Source: Glycomyces sp. TRM65418
GTDB lineage: Bacteria > Actinomycetota > Actinomycetes > Mycobacteriales > Micromonosporaceae
Assembly: GCF_019710475.1 (NCBI RefSeq)
Contig: NZ_JAJFAX010000007.1
Coordinates: forward strand, 1-64,000
Reading direction: 5' to 3'
Length of the DNA: 64,000 nucleotides
Below the pieces are notes generated by a model that searched no databases, had not been told where the DNA came from, and saw nothing but the letters and a program-made list of their open reading frames with translations. The position numbers were made by a program, and so were the translations under genes. How positions within the stretch are numbered: position 1 is the first letter of the stretch; each line of letters starts with the position of its first letter. Positions 3,553 to 63,516 of the stretch are shown in pieces.

Positions 3553-5118
3553 TCAGTCCTTTCGGTCCTGGTCCGGCTCGTCGGCCAGCACGAGCTTGTG
3601 CGTGGCCGTGGGCGGGTCGTCGGTGCCCTCGACGGCGTTCGACGGCAGCAGCCGCCAGTCCGGCCGCGCGAAGAACGCCTTCGTCTCCCGGTACACCAGC
3701 GGCGTCAGGATCAAGAGGCCGATCAGGTTCGGCAGCGCCATGAGGCCGTTCGCGATGTCCGACAGGCCCCACAGCAGGTCGAGGCTGGTCACCGCGCCCA
3801 GGTAGGTCACGAGGACGTACAGGATCCGGTAGGGGAGGATCAGCGTCCGGCCCGTGAAGCGCTCGAGGCACTTCTCGCCGTAGTAGGACCAGCCGATGAT
3901 CGTCGAGAACGCGAACGTGGCCAGGCCGACCGCGACGATGAAGCCGCCGATCGCGCCGCCCGTCGTGCCGGACCCGCCGAGGCCCTCCTCGAACGCGAGC
4001 CGCGTCAGCGCCGCCGAGGTGACGAGCTCGCCCTCCTCGTCCTGCGCGCCGAGGACGCCCGTGGAGATGATGACCAGGCCGGTCAGCGAGACGACGATGA
4101 TCGTGTCGATGAACGTCTGCGTCATCGACACCAGCGCCTGGCGCACCGGCTGGTCGGTCTTGGCCGCGGCGGCCGCGATGCCGCCCGTGCCCAGGCCCGA
4201 CTCGTTCGAGAAGATGCCGCGCGCGAAGCCCATCTGGATGGCCAGCATGATCGTCGAGCCGGTGAAGCCGCCGACGGCCGCGCCGCCGGTGAACGCCTGC
4301 TCGAAGACCATGACGAGGGCCGTGCCGAGCACGTCCCAGTTGAACGCGAGCACCGCGAGCGCGCCGAGCACGTAGAACACGATCATGAGCGGCACCAGCG
4401 CGGCCGCGACGTTGCCGATCCACTTGATGCCGCCGAGGATCGTGACGCCCACGAGCACGAAGATCACCAGGCCGGTCAGCTCGGGGGTCCACCAGGAGTC
4501 GGCGGGCAGCTGCGCGTCGAGGGCGCTCGTGACGTTCCCCGACTGCACCGCGTTGCCGATGCCGAAGCTCGCGACGACGCCGAACACGGCGAACATGATC
4601 GCCAGGACCTTGCCGAGCGGGCCGCGGATGCCCTGCGAGAGGTACTGCTGCGGGCCGCCGGACTGCTCGCCCTTCTCGTTCGTGACGCGGAACTTGACGC
4701 CCAGGAGCGCCTCGGAGTACTTGGTGGCCATGCCGAGGAAGCCGGTCACCCACATCCAGAACAGCGCCCCGGGGCCGCCGATCGCGATCGCCGCGCCGAC
4801 GCCGCCGATGTTGCCCACGCCCACCGTGGCCGCCAACGCGACCGACAGCGCCTGGTAGTGGCTCAGGTCCCCCTTGGACTCCGAGTTCTCCTTGCGCTTG
4901 AACAGCGCGAGCCACAGTCCGTAGCCGAGGCGGCGGAACTGCACGCCTCGCAGCACGATGGTGAAGATCAGGCCCACGGCGAACAACGTGAAGATGAGGA
5001 TGGGGCCCCACACCACGTCGACGACGGAACCCACGGCGGACCCGTACCGCTCGTTCAGTCCGTCCGCCCAGGACTGGATGGCCTCTGTCACGGGATCGAG
5101 GAAGTCCATGAAGTCCAC
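3553..5118 (-). CDS. Sodium:alanine/glycine symporter (AGCS family), copy 1
   Basis: The 521-residue, highly hydrophobic protein carries the AGCS signature region (GVQFRRLGYGLWLALF, TVGVGNIGGVGAAIAIGGPG) and about ten membrane segments. The family imports alanine or glycine with Na+ or H+. The GTG at 5116-5118 follows an AAAGGAG only three bases upstream; the in-frame ATG at 5107-5109 is twelve bases from it, so the start is ambiguous by three codons. A second AGCS gene lies at 28658-30124, and the two differ clearly in sequence, which suggests different substrates or regulation. The C-terminal tail is acidic (DEPDQDRKD). Confidence 0.92.
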   Translation of the reverse strand: MDFMDFLDPVTEAIQSWADGLNERYGSAVGSVVDVVWGPILIFTLFAVGLIFTIVLRGVQFRRLGYGLWLALFKRKENSESKGDLSHYQALSVALAATVGVGNIGGVGAAIAIGGPGALFWMWVTGFLGMATKYSEALLGVKFRVTNEKGEQSGGPQQYLSQGIRGPLGKVLAIMFAVFGVVASFGIGNAVQSGNVTSALDAQLPADSWWTPELTGLVIFVLVGVTILGGIKWIGNVAAALVPLMIVFYVLGALAVLAFNWDVLGTALVMVFEQAFTGGAAVGGFTGSTIMLAIQMGFARGIFSNESGLGTGGIAAAAAKTDQPVRQALVSMTQTFIDTIIVVSLTGLVIISTGVLGAQDEEGELVTSAALTRLAFEEGLGGSGTTGGAIGGFIVAVGLATFAFSTIIGWSYYGEKCLERFTGRTLILPYRILYVLVTYLGAVTSLDLLWGLSDIANGLMALPNLIGLLILTPLVYRETKAFFARPDWRLLPSNAVEGTDDPPTATHKLVLADEPDQDRKD

Positions 5119-5217
5119 ATGCTCCTTTCAAGGGGGTATACGCGGCGAAAGGCAGTGTGCTACCGCGCCCGAAGAGCATATAGGTGGATTGTCGGGGCCG
5201 GCCGGTACGGTGTGGCG

Positions 5218-5922
5218 ATGAGCGAACGATGGTTTGAAGGGCCCCTCCTCGGCTTCGACACCGAGACGACCGGCGTGGTCGTCGACCGCGACCGGATCGT
5301 CCAGGCGGCGCTGGTCTCCGGGACCGGCGGCGCCCGGGTGCCCGGCGGCGAGACCGCGAGCGTCTGGCTGATCGACCCCGGCGTCCCCATCCCCCCGGGG
5401 GCCACGCGGGTCCACGGCATCACCGACGAGCGGGTCCAGGCCGAGGGCCGCGCCCCGGCCGAGGCGCTCGCGGAGATCGCGGCGGCGCTGCGCGGGGCCG
5501 TGGAGGGCGGGGTGCCGGTGGTGGTGTTCCGGGCCGGGTTCGACTGCACGATGCTCTCGTACGAGCTGGAGCGGCACGGGATCGCGCAGCCCGACTGGCA
5601 GCGCATGGCGATCGTGGACCCGTCGGTGCTCGACAAGCGCGTCGACCGCTACCGCAAGGGCAAGCGGACGCTCGGCGTGACGGCCGCGCACTACGGGGTG
5701 CCGCACGCCGAGGCGCACTCGGCGGCGGGCGACGCGGCCGCGACCGTGGCGCTGGCGCGGGCGATCGGCGCGATGTACCCGGAGGTCGGCGACGTGACCG
5801 CGCAGGAGCTGCACGCGGCGCAGGTGCGGTGGCACGCCGAGGACGCGGCGAGCCTGGAGGCGTACTTCCGCCGCAAGGGCCGCGAGGAGGCGGTGGACCG
5901 GCGCTGGCCCCTGTGCCGCTGA
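5218..5922 (+). CDS. DEDDh 3'-5' exonuclease (DnaQ-like)
   Basis: The start at 5218 gives a 234-residue protein that begins with the ExoI motif FDTETTG (D14, E16), has an ExoII region GVPVVVFRAGFDCTML and an ExoIII motif HSAAGDA with the catalytic His and Asp. This is the RNase T/DnaQ exonuclease fold and may be a proofreading-like or nucleic-acid turnover nuclease; it is too short and lacks the tau-binding tail expected of the full polymerase III epsilon subunit. The open frame extends far upstream, but only this start follows a plausible promoter region and matches the family. Confidence 0.9.
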   Translation: MSERWFEGPLLGFDTETTGVVVDRDRIVQAALVSGTGGARVPGGETASVWLIDPGVPIPPGATRVHGITDERVQAEGRAPAEALAEIAAALRGAVEGGVPVVVFRAGFDCTMLSYELERHGIAQPDWQRMAIVDPSVLDKRVDRYRKGKRTLGVTAAHYGVPHAEAHSAAGDAAATVALARAIGAMYPEVGDVTAQELHAAQVRWHAEDAASLEAYFRRKGREEAVDRRWPLCR

Positions 5923-5926
5923 CACG

Positions 5927-5964
5927 GAACGAGGCCCCGATCCTTCCGGATCGGGGCCTCGTTC
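5927..5964. terminator. Bidirectional terminator
   Basis: A perfect 17-bp inverted repeat (5927-5943 with 5948-5964, loop TTCC) lies between the convergent exonuclease and lipoprotein genes. Confidence 0.8.
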
Positions 5965-5979
5965 GCAACGTTCGGCGGC

Positions 5980-6747
5980 CTAGTGGCCCTCGGCCTCGGC
6001 TTCGGGCTCGTAGTACTCGCGGTCGGCGGCGTCGACCGGCGGGGCGATCGGCAGGTCGACCTCGACCTCGGTGCCGTCGGAGAAGAGGAAGGTGACCCGG
6101 ACGGCCTCACCGGTGCGCAGCTCCTCACCGACGTTCTCGATCAGCAGGTGACCGCTGCTCTGGGCGCTCTGGTCGAGGCGCACGTAGTCGCCGACGGCGA
6201 TCGGGATCTCGAACGAGGTCTCGCCGTCGAGCGCGTCGGCTCCGCTCGTGGGGGCCTCGGACGTGGCGTCCCCTGCGGGGGCGCTCGTCTCCCCGCCGTC
6301 GGGAGCGCTCGTCTCCTCATCGGTGGGGGTGCTCGTCTCCTCCGCGGCGGTGGTCGGCTCGTCCGGGAGGGCGGTCGGCTCCCCGGTCGGCGTGTTCGCG
6401 TCCGCCGTGGGGGTCGCCTCGGACTCGGCGCTCACGTAGGTGACGGTGCCCGCGTCGGTCTCGACGCCGACCAGGCTGACCTCTTCGGTGCCCTCGTTGC
6501 CGATCCAGACCCGCAGGGCCGCGTCGTCGCCCGTGTCGTAGCCCCCGGCGTCGTCGAATTCGACCGCGAGGTCGCGCAGAGCCAGGTCGTCCTTGTCGAC
6601 GTTGACCCCGGCGATGGCGCTCTGCTTCTGGTCGGTCTGGGTCTCCAGACCCGCGCCGCATGCCGACAGAGCGGCCGCAGCGGCCCCCGCGATCGCGATG
6701 GCGGCCGCGCGACGAACCGTGATCGCCGTGCTGATTCCCCTGACCAC
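5980..6747 (-). CDS. Secreted lipoprotein, LpqE-like position next to carD
   Basis: A GTG at 6745-6747 sits six bases from a GGGAGGA ribosome binding site (6754-6760) and gives 255 residues; the ATG at 6775-6777 is the main alternative. The N-terminus is a lipoprotein signal (hydrophobic AAAIAIAGAAAAALSACGAG, Cys after LSA). The mature chain has a beta-rich front part (LALRDLAVEFDD, LRVWIGNEGTEEVSLVGVET), a 60-residue linker of Thr, Ser, Ala, Pro and Glu, and a second beta part ending in an acidic tail. The two halves resemble a split PCu(A)C-type copper-chaperone fold, the family of mycobacterial LpqE, which also neighbours carD; that assignment is inference. Confidence 0.75.
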   Translation of the reverse strand: MVRGISTAITVRRAAAIAIAGAAAAALSACGAGLETQTDQKQSAIAGVNVDKDDLALRDLAVEFDDAGGYDTGDDAALRVWIGNEGTEEVSLVGVETDAGTVTYVSAESEATPTADANTPTGEPTALPDEPTTAAEETSTPTDEETSAPDGGETSAPAGDATSEAPTSGADALDGETSFEIPIAVGDYVRLDQSAQSSGHLLIENVGEELRTGEAVRVTFLFSDGTEVEVDLPIAPPVDAADREYYEPEAEAEGH

Positions 6748-7164
6748 TGCTGGTCCTCCCTGAGTTCCGACAGGCATGCTGACGACAGCGTAGACGACGA
6801 GCACCGCTGGTCGCTCTTGGCCGGGCGCGCGGCGAGCCCTGCGTCTCATCCCGACGCTGCTACCGCTCGGATCAATTGCGCGCCAACGATATTACCGAAC
6901 GATCGAATCATCGGAGCAGGTCGTCGGCGCGCCGACGCCGGCCGCGCCCCGCCCCGTGCCGTACCGCGCCGGAGCGGCGCGAGGCGCCGGACACACCGGA
7001 GCGACCCAGGCCTCATTTGCCTCCTCCGCGCGCCGCCCGGAAGCCCAAGGTGCCGTAGAGTAATCAGTCACATACCAATTGACCAGGGAATTCGTGGCGA
7101 TCCGCTGTCGGGGAAAACCCCGATGACGTGTTAGGCTAGACACAGCGAAAGGGGTTTCGATCCT
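6748..7164. other. Divergent intergenic region, lipoprotein / carD
   Basis: These 417 bases have no supported gene. They carry AT-richer patches near 6870-6915 and 7060-7095 and a -10-like TAGGCT at 7132-7137, about 27 bases before the carD start. The carD ribosome binding site is the GAAAGGGG stretch just before the ATG. A transcription start cannot be fixed from sequence alone. Confidence 0.4.
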
Positions 7165-13827: not shown

Positions 13828-14127
13828 GCGGGCGGACCGCTGGTTGCGGTCCGCCCGCGATCTCCTCGCGAGGTGTGCCTGTAGGAGCCGCGCGCGGGTG
13901 CACCCGCGCGCGGTCTTCGGGGGCGGCTCCCGGGATGCCCACTTCGCCGCCGGTCCTACAGGCACCGGTCCGCCGCTCCGCGCTTCCACCTCCACCGGCG
14001 GAGCAGCCGTTTTTTCAATCAACCATCACATGTCCGCGATGTGCCGCCAAGGACTGTTTTTCGACCTGTGGATAACTTTGCGAATGTCGCTTATGTTGCC
14101 TGGTGGCATGGGGAAGGGTTTTCCACA
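13828..14127. repeat. Composite hairpin/DnaA-box element, copy A
   Basis: Between convergent genes lie: hairpin 1 (13828-13840 with 13846-13858, loop TGGTT); a 12-bp outer stem (13875-13886 with 13954-13965) enclosing a 26-nt perfect palindrome (13888-13913); a TCCGCCG/CGGCGGA hairpin running into a T6 tract at 14010-14015; then TGTGGATAA at 14067-14075 and an inverted TTTTCCACA at 14119-14127. Copy B at 45895-46261 has the same order, nearly the same hairpin sequences (GCGGGCGG arms with a TGGT loop; GCGCGCGG), and the same 49-base distance from T6 to CCTGTGGATAACTTT. See also the findings. Confidence 0.65.
14067..14075 (-). promoter_or_regulatory. DnaA-box-like site
   Basis: TTATCCACA on the minus strand, identical to the strongest E. 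coli DnaA box; a second site, TTTTCCACA, lies on the plus strand at 14119-14127. Whether DnaA binds here is inference. Confidence 0.45.
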
Positions 14128-45894: not shown

Positions 45895-46261
45895 GCGGGC
45901 GGTCGGGCTGGTGTGCCCGACCGCCCGCGTGTTCCGCGGAAGGCATGGTCCTGCGGGGACCGCGCGCGGGCGGCTTCCCGCGCGCGGTCTCGGTATGGCG
46001 ACGTTCGCGAATCCCCTTCTGTCGCCGCCATCCCGCAGGGCCAGATGGCTTTTTTGTTTCAACCCTGACACGCTCTGCGATTGACCGGCAACAGCGAGTT
46101 TCTTCCTGTGGATAACTTTCTCCGCAGTGGAATCCATGCGGGGTGCAGCCTTGTGGACAGTGGAGGTGGGCGTGCCGACGGCGATGGTTCGGTGGCGCAT
46201 CTTTCAACCGTGTCACGGGTTGCAAGCGAGCGGCAACCTTAGGTTTTCCGCCTGTGGATAA
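45895..46261. repeat. Composite hairpin/DnaA-box element, copy B
   Basis: Same order as copy A: hairpin 1 of 14 bp (45895-45908 with 45915-45928, loop TGGTGT); outer stem GGTCCTGCGGG/CCCGCAGGGCC (45947-45957 with 46032-46042) enclosing a 13-bp hairpin (45958-45970 with 45977-45989); T6 at 46050-46055; then CCTGTGGATAACTTT starting at 46105, 49 bases after the T6 as in copy A. Further box-like sites lie at 46152-46160 and 46253-46261. It also sits between convergent genes (GH27 and VOC). The whole gap 45851-46288 contains no supported gene. Confidence 0.65.
46107..46115 (-). promoter_or_regulatory. DnaA-box-like sites (three)
   Basis: TTATCCACA on the minus strand at 46107-46115 and again at 46253-46261; a one-mismatch CTGTCCACA at 46152-46160. 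All three have the same orientation. Confidence 0.45.
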
Positions 46262-46288
46262 CCCTGGGGATTCGTTTGTTATTGCAGG

Positions 46289-48285: not shown

Positions 48286-50478
48286 ATGTCGGAAACGCAA
48301 CCTGCGAAACCCGCGGCTCCGCGCCGCGACCAACCGCGCACTCACCACGGCGACACCGTGAACGACCCGTACGCCTGGCTCAAGAATCCCGAGGACTCCG
48401 CCACCGTCGACTACCTCAAGGCCGAGAACGCCTACACCGAAGCGCGCACCGCCCATCTCGCCGGCCTGCGCAAGGCGATCTTCGGTGAGATCAAGGGACG
48501 CACCCAGGAGACCGACCTCTCCGTCCCCGTCCGCAAGCGCGGCTGGTGGTACTACGGCCGCACCGAGGAGGGGAAGCAGTACGGCATCCAGTGCCGCCTC
48601 AAGGCCGACGGCGACACGCCCCCCGAGATCGAGGCCGGGGTGGCCGTCGAGGGCGAGGAGATCCTGGTCGACGGCAACGAGCTCGCCGAGGGCCACGACT
48701 TCTTCTCCCTGGGCACCTGCGACGTCTCCCCCGACGGGAACCTGCTGGCCTATGCGGTGAACTACTCGGGCGACGAGCGCTTCACCCTGCGGTTCAAGGA
48801 CCTGCGCACCGGCGAGGACTTCCCCGACGACATCCCGAACGTCTTCTACGGCGGCGCGTGGTCGCGCGACGGCTCCGTCTTCTTCTACACCAAAGTGGAC
48901 GACGCCTGGCGTCCGTACCAGGTGTGGCGGCACGTCCTCGGCGAGCACGAGGACAAGGACGTCCTGGTCTACCAGGAGGACGACGAGCGGTTCTGGACCG
49001 GCATCGACCTGACCCGCTCCGAGCGCTACCTCTTCATCGTCTCCGGCTCCAAGATCACCACCGAGTACCGCTACCTCGACGCCGCCGACCCGCAGGGCGA
49101 GTTCACCGTCTTCGGCGAGGGCCGCGTCCAGGGCGTCGAGCTGAGCGTCGACCACCAGGGCGACCGGTTCTGGGTGCTCCACAACAAGGACGCCGAGAAC
49201 TTCACCCTCGGCTGGGCGCCCGTCGACGACACGACGCAGTTCAACGAGGTCATTCCCCACGACGAGGCGGTCCGCCTCGAATCCGCCGACGCCTTCGCCG
49301 ACCACGTGGTCGTCTCGATGCGCCGCGCCGGACTCTCGCAGGTGGCCATCCTTGAAGGCGGAGCCGGAAAGGATCGTGAGCGCAGTCTTGAAGGCGGAGC
49401 CGGAAAGGATCGTGAGCGCAGTCTTGAAGGCGGAGCCGGACAGGGCCCGGGGCACGAGTACGACGGGGCGCGCCTGACCGAGATCCAGTTCGACGAGCCG
49501 ATCTACGCCGTCGGCCTCGGAGAGAACGTCGACTACGACTCCCGGCAGATCCGCCTCGGCTACACCTCGCTCGTCACCCCGTCCTCGGTGTACGACTACG
49601 ACATCGACGACGCCGAGCTGCGCCTGCGCAAGCGCACGCCCGTCCTCGGCGACTTCGACCCGGCCGACTACGTGCAGTACCGCGAGTGGGCCACGGCCGC
49701 CGACGGCACGAAGGTGCCGATCTCGATCGTCGCGAAGGCCGGCGTCGCCCCGGACGGGACCGCGCCGTGCCTGCTGTACGGCTACGGCTCCTACGAGCAC
49801 TCGATCGACCCGTACTTCTCCATCGCCCGCCTGAGCCTGCTCGACCGCGGCGTGGTCTTCGCGATCGCGCACATCCGCGGCGGCGGCGAGATGGGCCGCC
49901 GGTGGTACGAGGAGGGCAAGCTGCTCCACAAGCGGAACACGTTCACCGACTTCGTGGACTGCGCCGACCACCTCGTCGAGGCGGGCTGGGCCGCGCCCGA
50001 CCGGATCGTCGCCCGCGGCGGCTCGGCCGGCGGCCTCCTCATGGGCGCCGTCGCGAACCTCGCTCCCGCGCGGTTCGCCGGCATCCTCGCCGACGTCCCG
50101 TTCGTGGACGCCCTCAACACGATCCTCGACCCCACGATGCCCCTCACGGTCATCGAATGGGAGGAGTGGGGCAACCCGCTCGAGTCGGCCGAGGTCTACG
50201 AGTACATGAAGTCGTACTCGCCCTACGAGAACGTCACCGGCGTGCGGTACCCGCCGATCCTGGCCGTGACCAGCCTCAACGACACCCGGGTGGGCTTCCA
50301 CGAGCCCGCCAAGTGGATCGCGAAGCTGCGCCACGAGAGCCCGGACTCGGACGTGTTGCTGAAGACCGAGATGGAAGCCGGCCACGGCGGCCGCTCCGGC
50401 CGCTACGACGCCTGGGAGGAAGAGGCCTTCAACCTCGCCTGGGTACTTGACAAGCTCGGTGCGGCCGAGGTCGCCTGA
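48286..50478 (+). CDS. Prolyl oligopeptidase-family serine peptidase (oligopeptidase B-like)
   Basis: The 730-residue protein has the S9A plan: a beta-propeller (residues about 70-420) and a catalytic domain with nucleophile in RGGSAGGLLMGA, Asp in SLNDTRVGFHEPAKW and His in EAGHGGRSGRYDAW. HIRGGGEMGRRWYEEGK and DFVDCADHLV match oligopeptidase B, which cuts after basic residues in short peptides. There is no signal peptide. Residues about 356-385, inside the propeller, are a 12-residue tandem repeat not expected in the family. Confidence 0.93.
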   Translation: MSETQPAKPAAPRRDQPRTHHGDTVNDPYAWLKNPEDSATVDYLKAENAYTEARTAHLAGLRKAIFGEIKGRTQETDLSVPVRKRGWWYYGRTEEGKQYGIQCRLKADGDTPPEIEAGVAVEGEEILVDGNELAEGHDFFSLGTCDVSPDGNLLAYAVNYSGDERFTLRFKDLRTGEDFPDDIPNVFYGGAWSRDGSVFFYTKVDDAWRPYQVWRHVLGEHEDKDVLVYQEDDERFWTGIDLTRSERYLFIVSGSKITTEYRYLDAADPQGEFTVFGEGRVQGVELSVDHQGDRFWVLHNKDAENFTLGWAPVDDTTQFNEVIPHDEAVRLESADAFADHVVVSMRRAGLSQVAILEGGAGKDRERSLEGGAGKDRERSLEGGAGQGPGHEYDGARLTEIQFDEPIYAVGLGENVDYDSRQIRLGYTSLVTPSSVYDYDIDDAELRLRKRTPVLGDFDPADYVQYREWATAADGTKVPISIVAKAGVAPDGTAPCLLYGYGSYEHSIDPYFSIARLSLLDRGVVFAIAHIRGGGEMGRRWYEEGKLLHKRNTFTDFVDCADHLVEAGWAAPDRIVARGGSAGGLLMGAVANLAPARFAGILADVPFVDALNTILDPTMPLTVIEWEEWGNPLESAEVYEYMKSYSPYENVTGVRYPPILAVTSLNDTRVGFHEPAKWIAKLRHESPDSDVLLKTEMEAGHGGRSGRYDAWEEEAFNLAWVLDKLGAAEVA
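49351..49440 (+). repeat. In-frame 36-nt tandem repeat in the oligopeptidase gene
   Basis: Two and a half identical 36-nt units (49351-49386, 49387-49422, then 18 nt to 49440), each encoding LEGGAGKDRERS. Codons such as TTG, GAA, AAA, GAT and CGT are unlike the rest of the gene. The unit has no stop in this frame. Confidence 0.85.
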
Positions 50479-63349: not shown

Positions 63350-63500
63350 TGCGAGCCGGAACCTGGCGCTGTGTCACCGAACCGGGGAACCAGCAGTCGG
63401 CCGCTCAAGCCCGGCCGACGGGGTGAATCGCGCCCCCAGCGCGTAGGGCGACCCTTCCTTCCGCCCGAACCCGACAGCTAACCCGGTAGGCGGCCAAAGG
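63350..63500 (+). ncRNA. Cyclic-di-AMP (ydaO/yuaA) riboswitch
   Basis: The leader contains the ydaO signature blocks: CCGGGGAACC, GGGGTGAATC, AGGGCGACCCTTCC, GCCCGAACCCGACAGCTAAC and GTAGGCGG near the 3' end. In actinobacteria this riboswitch controls peptidoglycan hydrolase genes, turning them off at high c-di-AMP. The 5' boundary is approximate. Confidence 0.85.
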
Positions 63501-63516
63501 AAGGAGCGCATCCCTG

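Follow-up and report, generated by a model that had tools for sequence, protein, structure and literature searches.

A candidate small-RNA family in Glycomyces with a predicted dimerising loop and a DnaA-box promoter common to natural-competence genes

Overview

Two intergenic elements in the window (the whole stretch of 64,000 nt analysed here), referred to as copies A and B, probably belong to a family of dimerising small RNAs whose DnaA-box promoter places them under common regulation with natural-competence genes. Each element would encode a small RNA on the minus strand. The predicted activator site is a DnaA-type box with its centre near -56, activation being favoured over repression, and the putative transcription start (+1) would lie 49–51 nt after the box in a promoter that usually includes a TTGNNN hexamer resembling a -35 element. 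The predicted transcript of about 160–190 nt (copies B and A) would fold into a three-way junction, in which P1 closes the arms P2 and P3, and end in a GC hairpin, which might double as a terminator for the convergent gene. Through its P3 loop, the RNA may pair with a second molecule to form a kissing-loop homodimer. The same predicted promoter precedes comEA-comEC, the gene ahead of comM-dprA, and ssd-tadA of the Flp/tad pilus. Because the promoter is shared with competence loci, the RNAs would be made together with the DNA-uptake machinery, and RNA and uptake genes would most likely be on when DnaA occupies the box.

Organization of the Two Window Copies

The initial annotation described an ordered composite that occurs twice between convergent genes, with an identical 49-base spacing between a T6 tract and the string CCTGTGGATAAC. 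The positions of both copies were confirmed in the 64,000-nt window. T6 occupies 14010–14015 in copy A and 46050–46055 in copy B, CCTGTGGATAAC begins exactly 49 bases past T6 in each (14065 and 46105) and is followed directly by TTT, and the flanking ORFs, read from the ORF lists, are convergent in both cases. The GCGGGCGG hairpins lie at 13828–13858 (copy A) and 45895–45928 (copy B). An inverted-repeat listing of the window copies contains the GCGCGCGG palindrome and, for copy A, the outer stem, which forms in both copies by folding.

The orientation and parts of the element were derived from a line-up of nine copies from the source genome. On the minus strand, the predicted order is the box GTTATCCACAGG, a promoter stretch of 49–51 nt, an A-tract, the three-way-junction RNA, and the GC hairpin. 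Because the element reads on this strand, T6 would correspond to the A-tract at the predicted RNA 5′ end rather than to a terminator tail. The features are as follows, with the evidence in brackets where it is specific to the feature.

14065..14076, minus strand: copy A DnaA-type box GTTATCCACAGG (sequence, box scan)
14045..14050, minus strand: copy A putative -35-like TTGGCG, 14 nt after the box (read from the sequence)
14010..14015, minus strand: copy A A-tract, predicted RNA 5′ end (+1), 49 nt after the box
13967..14009, minus strand: copy A extra 5′ segment, typical of the A subtype (copy line-up/folding)
13874..13966, minus strand: copy A three-way-junction core, P1 enclosing P3 and P2 (R1 68.3 bits, R2 80.6 bits)
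13928..13935, minus strand: copy A self-complementary P3 loop TCCCGGGA (loop analysis)
13828..13858, minus strand: copy A GC hairpin, predicted RNA 3′ end, and downstream of the convergent plus-strand ORF
14119..14127, plus strand: copy A one-mismatch box TTTTCCACA, opposite orientation (box scan)
46105..46116, minus strand: copy B proximal DnaA-type box GTTATCCACAGG (sequence, box scan)
46086..46091, minus strand: copy B putative -35-like TTGCCG, 13 nt after the box (read from the sequence)
46050..46055, minus strand: copy B A-tract, predicted RNA 5′ end, 49 nt after the box
45946..46042, minus strand: copy B three-way-junction core (R1 103.6 bits)
46004..46011, minus strand: copy B self-complementary P3 loop TTCGCGAA (loop analysis)
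45895..45928, minus strand: copy B GC hairpin, predicted RNA 3′ end
46251..46262, minus strand: copy B distal box, full second promoter cassette
46198..46200, minus strand: copy B ATG, 50 nt after the distal box

Six box-like sites with at most one mismatch are found in the window against 1.62 expected, and none of 100 shuffles reached six. The additional box-like sites that had been reported beside both copies are present, as a single one-mismatch site in the opposite orientation in copy A and as the second cassette in copy B.

Elsewhere in the window, a c-di-AMP riboswitch (RF00379, 66.7 bits) lies at 63357–63508, near the window end. The plus-strand ORF at 48286–50478 contains a short translated repeat (SLEGGAGKDRER repeated), apparently an in-frame insertion.

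Copies, Distribution, and Conserved Fold

The proposal that this arrangement is unlikely to result from chance agrees with the frequency of CCTGTGGATAAC, which occurs exactly 24 times in the 5.09-Mb source genome (reversed control, 0) and 9–44 times in each of the 22 genus genomes, the source genome included. Named records with the promoter pattern are all from Glycomyces (11 stretches from six species, the source genome possibly not among them). Two main subtypes are distinguished. In subtype B, to which copy B belongs, the box-to-core distance is mostly 61–67 nt; in subtype A, which includes copy A and carries an extra 5′ segment relative to B, it is mostly 94–103 nt.

A lack of further copies in the genome or its relatives would have counted against the initial annotation, but further copies exist in both. 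The covariance model R1 finds nine copies in the source genome and has matches in 19 of the 22 genus genomes; on a family sample, it matched 6 of 101 genomes, all Glycomyces, in a draw for which the number of genus members is not shown. The broader model R2 finds ten copies in the source genome, adding the diverged member C4:13981–14077, and matches 19 of the 22 genus genomes compared with none of 18 others (three of the same family and 15 of the same order). Three Glycomyces genomes, G017, G018, and G021, gave no RNA in the search of the 22 genus genomes.

Covariation in the stems, which the initial annotation had proposed to score, is extensive. In the R1 alignment (101 of the 117 hits, from 100 sources and with 88 distinct rows; 16 loci were aligned apart), 95.0% of the cells are paired and 19 of 29 pairs have changes on both sides. 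None of 500 shuffles reached any covariation measure, and slid controls fell to 36–54% paired; because the sequences are related, these counts cannot be taken as probabilities, and the rows were aligned to the covariance model. The fold is considered conserved despite the model-fitted alignment because slid controls and two-sided changes point the same way. Read in the minus-strand sense, the wobble cells comprise 159 G.U/U.G versus 67 C.A/A.C, and a single pair, which subtype A forms poorly, accounts for 31 of the 67. Single-sequence folding energies did not discriminate between the strands.

Within 110 nt after the core, a mismatch-free stem of ≥10 bp is found in 80 of 115 copies and is absent in 35, compared with 0 of 115 shuffled stretches; these shuffles, like those of the loop described below, preserve composition only. 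In L164, long G and C runs at ~125–210 lie just past an RNA copy and are probably an assembly artefact.

An Rfam 15 scan of the window at the gathering threshold returned only three tRNAs and the c-di-AMP riboswitch, all away from the copies, and permissive scans of copies A and B gave sub-threshold matches only. BjrC80 (RF02354) scored 32.2 bits (E-value 1.1e-4), with a bias correction of 12 bits and far under its gathering score of 80. This match lies mostly over the copy B GC hairpins, GC-hairpin bias is its best explanation, and the element is not considered a member. An intrinsic terminator alone was also rejected, being contradicted by the covarying three-way junction, the loop rule, and the fixed promoter spacing. 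The elements look like genes for a previously undescribed small-RNA family that is multicopy in Glycomyces. A literature search of titles and abstract openings, with few subscription journals, found no Glycomyces small RNA of this kind; the sole paper on Glycomyces and small RNA that it returned concerns Ms1.

A Self-Complementary P3 Loop

The P3 loop consists of a GGG run followed by a self-complementary 6–10-mer. A palindrome with at least three Watson-Crick pairs per half is present in all 68 distinct loops (115 of the 117 copies), four pairs per half are present in 60 of the 68, and the centre lies 3–5 nt from the loop end in 67. Over 300 rounds, the number of shuffled loops with a palindrome averaged 15.9 and never exceeded 28, versus the 68 observed. 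The letters themselves vary among TTCGCGAA, CCCCGGGG, TCCCGGGA, GATCGATC, TCCGCGGA, TCCATGGA, TTCCGGAA, TCTGCAGA, and others, and diverged members have the loop CCGCGCGG. Of 20 held-out copies, which were used in neither model but include near-duplicates and nine existing R1 hits, 19 fit the loop rule (including ACCGCGGT) and one has a weak palindrome only.

Because the letters turn over while self-complementarity persists at neighbouring bases, the pairing is judged not to be intramolecular. The best reading of this pattern is that the RNA forms a kissing-loop homodimer. Two loop types are found among the nine source-genome copies, seven with TTCGCGAA and two with CCCGGG, and RNAs of these two types should be unable to pair with each other.

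Geometry of the Box Promoter

All 117 R1 hits have a box within 250 nt on the RNA 5′ side (93 exact, 23 with one mismatch, and one with two). The 20 held-out copies likewise have a 5′ box in every case, and no site with two or fewer mismatches lies 3′ of them. The distance from box to A-tract is 49, 50, or 51 nt in 114 of the 117 hits, and the other three are without a run of four A. A TTGNNN hexamer 12–14 nt after the box is found in only 78 of the 114 copies. No single -10 element fits all Glycomyces subtypes, as TTGTAG, TGATTG, and TTGATA-like hexamers compete.

The same distance separates the box from the start codons of genes. Of 95 unique sites that have an exact box and lie apart from R1 hits, an ATG occurs at offset 49 in 16 and at offsets 48–51 in 24, compared with at most six at any other offset in the range 0–97; this peak represents a handful of orthologous gene families, not 24 independent events, and several of the 95 sites are RNA copies missed by R1 or cut by contig ends. 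From G001–G006, 60 of at least 73 non-RNA box regions were retrieved. Because several unrelated genes and the RNA begin at the same box distance, the A-tract or ATG position is the probable +1.

Distal cassettes, which were picked by script and include that at window positions 46198–46262, have an ATG 49–50 nt after the box in 27 of 27 cases. Often, the frame opened by this ATG continues across the proximal box, where it reads VIHR, in the direction of the RNA. The sequence of the resulting peptide is not conserved, and for this reason no protein is claimed for the distal ATG. Four loci of one congener (L207, L210, L212, and L213) carry near-identical box cassettes followed by different downstream sequence (GGACTTTCGTGG...), which is apparently not the Glycomyces RNA; three of the four lie within 1.5 kb of a contig end.

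Competence Genes with the Same Promoter

Leaderless genes behind the box include those for ComEA (TIGR00426, 71.9 bits, cut-off 53.1), a DUF4192 protein (207 bits), an M23 peptidase (55.7 bits; one protein tested, L002), and a weakly REase-like protein (28.0 bits, below the cut-off of 38.2). Ssd/CpaE (TIGR03815, 221 bits) is encoded by a leadered box gene. A second M23-type protein (L165) gave only sub-cut-off peptidoglycan-hydrolase matches, and the remaining M23-type genes are named by their similar N-terminus.

In Glycomyces, a box with at most one mismatch is present at all 21 comEA loci over the cut-off, and an ATG follows 48–49 nt after it in 20; at locus L234, a good box is found in the distal position only. 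In total, 22 of 30 comEA-model loci were scanned, and the one below the cut-off, L236, has no box and is counted among the 20 controls. All 22 ssd loci scanned, out of 30 ssd-model loci, have the box. For DUF4192, it is present at 18 and lacking at seven of the 25 loci scanned, five short or low-scoring loci of the 30 having been dropped. In 21 of 22 loci, the ORF ahead of comM, which has an M23-type N-terminus, starts 48–50 nt past a box that lies 1.0–1.3 kb ahead of comM. The single miss, L435, is 3127 nt long and shorter than the other loci. Between the M23-type gene and comM presumably lies yraN. Control loci from the same searches have the box in 0 of 20 cases.

A comEC-type gene (PF03772) follows comEA at the two loci tested, and at one locus tested each, DprA (TIGR00732, 197.8 bits, cut-off 191.15) follows comM and TadA (TIGR03819, 443.9 bits, cut-off 373.15) follows ssd. 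The box is also kept at ssd and ahead of comM in G017, G018, and G021, in which the RNA was undetected. One putative cis-signal is common to the DNA-uptake genes, as a competence regulon is expected to have. The literature search, again of titles and abstract openings and with few subscription journals, returned no DnaA-box competence promoter in actinobacteria.

Beyond Glycomyces, the comEA promoter was followed in sets of best-scoring loci. In other genera of the GTDB family (27 loci from 58 non-genus genomes), the box is found at 23 of 27 comEA loci and on the opposite strand at none. An in-frame open start lies 40–69 nt from the 9-mer end in 20 of these loci and 51–53 nt from it (49–51 nt from the 12-mer end) in 15, and TANNNT precedes the start by 6–8 nt in 14. 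In other families of the class (29 loci from 59 genomes), a looser box pattern is seen at 8 of 29 loci (other strand, 0 of 29), with the same start distance at four. Other classes of the phylum (29 loci from 118 genomes) are largely negative, with the box at only 2 of 29. The comEA promoter appears to be older than the RNA, which would be a Glycomyces addition.

The Factor That Reads the Box

The box has the DnaA consensus (TTATCCACA-type) at a fixed promoter position. Its variants in genus comEA promoters are TTATCCACA (23), TTGTCCACA (15), and TTTTCCACA (1), and the same variants are found in the dnaA-dnaN interval (dnaA and dnaN confirmed by Pfam). DnaA is the reasonably likely binder on these grounds. 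The box pairs at comEA start 18–22 bp apart, and many RNA promoters show one box. In vivo, E. coli DnaA is described as preferring box pairs 2–3 bp apart (PMC11317965, excerpted text), a spacing that the comEA pairs do not have.

It is rather unlikely that a dedicated competence regulator reads the DnaA-like 12-mer at the same RNA genes and promoter, an explanation that differs from the one preferred here in the binder only. The conserved unit GTTATCCACAGG, which at 12 letters exceeds the 9-mer DnaA box, and the wide pairing of the comEA boxes would suit such a protein, whereas the variation of the comEA box follows DnaA degeneracy and matches the variants of the dnaA-dnaN interval.

With DnaA as the binder, a broader reading may be put forward tentatively. 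DnaA would directly switch on competence in Glycomyces, and comEA in much of the family, from a leaderless promoter with its box near -56, and a homodimer RNA would have been added to the regulon. At least two mutually exclusive loop "dialects" per genome are part of this reading, as is a possible action of the homodimer RNA in DNA uptake or in the control of uptake.

Groups of DnaA boxes were also seen at other sites. At L008:4053–4184 (source genome C33, ~81.5 kb), a 132-bp stretch inside the long ORF 3739–6873 contains five exact TTATCCACA boxes, which encode SYPQ-like repeats there. A 102-bp box spacing as in L008 recurs in at least four congeners, and a DnaA-box cluster may have been kept inside the coding region. 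Lying inside a long ORF and without a cassette, it was rejected as another element of the copy type. L015:3861–3936 contains five TTGTCCACA and one TTATCCACA with no promoter cassette, and similar clusters occur in congeners (L156, L170, L182, L189, and L200); clusters of this type are perhaps titration or reactivation sites. At L011:4245–4408, boxes 144 bp apart lie upstream of dnaA, a spacing found in several congeners among the matches listed, which suggests dnaA autoregulation.

Evolution of the Copies and Remaining Alternatives

The initial annotation considered a mobile or amplified element. Amplification in the genome is evident, and mobility is at most partial, as many sites are shared across species and copies are homogenised within genomes. 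Flank comparison gave 17 clusters of copies at shared sites, with both flanks matching. Pairs at least 98% identical make up 22 of 370 same-genome pairs, 0 of 256 orthologous-site pairs, and 0 of 6160 others, and the best match of 86 copies is a paralogue in 51 and an orthologue in 35. The site of copy B holds subtype B in three genomes and subtype A in three. These patterns fit concerted evolution of fixed copies with some replacement.

A non-autonomous, MITE-like mobile element carrying the promoter and hairpins is improbable. Near-identical copies confined to the same genome are what such an element would leave, but gene conversion between fixed copies explains the identity pattern, many copies occupy sites shared across species, and the structure and promoter are under constraint.

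More improbable still is that the boxes are DnaA titration or timing sites, as the initial annotation ventured, and the hairpins ordinary bidirectional terminators with no relevant RNA product. The many boxes, the GC hairpins, and the convergent intergenic sites are compatible with this idea; a crude gene caller assigned both neighbours for 74 of the 117 copies, and 46 of these lie at such sites. However, neither the A-tract nor leaderless ATGs would be expected to keep a constant distance of 49–51 nt from the box, and stem covariation and the loop rule are foreign to titration sites and terminators alike. As titration does not predict that the box keeps a set distance ahead of both the RNA and leaderless competence-gene starts, this part of the annotation is unsupported.

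The least probable alternative makes the plus strand the product, serving the left-hand gene as its RNA 3′ end or as a terminator. In its favour, T6 comes after the outer stem on that strand, the order found in intrinsic terminators, and whole-segment folds are about as stable as those of the minus strand. Against it, the balance of G.U over C.A cells speaks for the minus strand, all 117 hits have a minus-pointing box at the distance seen before start codons, and the element is constant while flanking genes differ between sites. The "structured RNA/terminator" of the initial annotation is accordingly retained as a conserved RNA fold and not as a plus-strand terminator, against which box geometry and wobble ratio argue.

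Significance and Comparison with Known Systems

The preferred reading, a dimerising small RNA co-regulated with competence genes, bears on the control of actinobacterial competence, which is an open question. A cis-signal at comEA-comEC, comM-dprA, and ssd-tadA, together with an RNA, makes it directly testable, and a DnaA box at competence promoters would tie DNA uptake to replication status. The RNA lies outside all Rfam families and has comparative evidence for intermolecular self-pairing; to our knowledge, few bacterial RNAs have any such evidence.

The nearest parallel for the regulon is natural transformation in Micrococcus luteus, for which tad genes are reported to be required (PMC4322843). 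The comEA/EC and tad/Flp pilus genes of that system (PMC4322843 and PMC8467076) have counterparts in Glycomyces among the loci with the common putative promoter. The competence regulon of M. luteus was stated to be unknown in 2026 (PMC12849477, excerpt), and the main text of PMC8467076 contains neither "DnaA" nor "leaderless." The E. coli DnaA regulon, as outlined in the excerpt of PMC11317965, is similarly compact, with TTATCCACA boxes at target promoters. It differs in box-pair spacing, and the predicted targets in Glycomyces are competence genes and a small RNA.

For the RNA, symmetric kissing loops are a likeness to OLE, ROOL, and GOLLD (PMC12286853, excerpt). Switches between palindromic loop sequences in OLE and GOLLD were taken there as evidence of intermolecular pairing. 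Unlike these large RNAs, that of Glycomyces has a core of ~95 nt, is multicopy, and would stand behind a DnaA-box promoter; sequence comparison with the three was made through Rfam only. The retroviral dimerisation-initiation-site kissing loops offer a further likeness, in that a GC-rich self-complementary loop joins two RNA copies. Between those loops and a bacterial chromosomal small RNA, the principle alone is alike.
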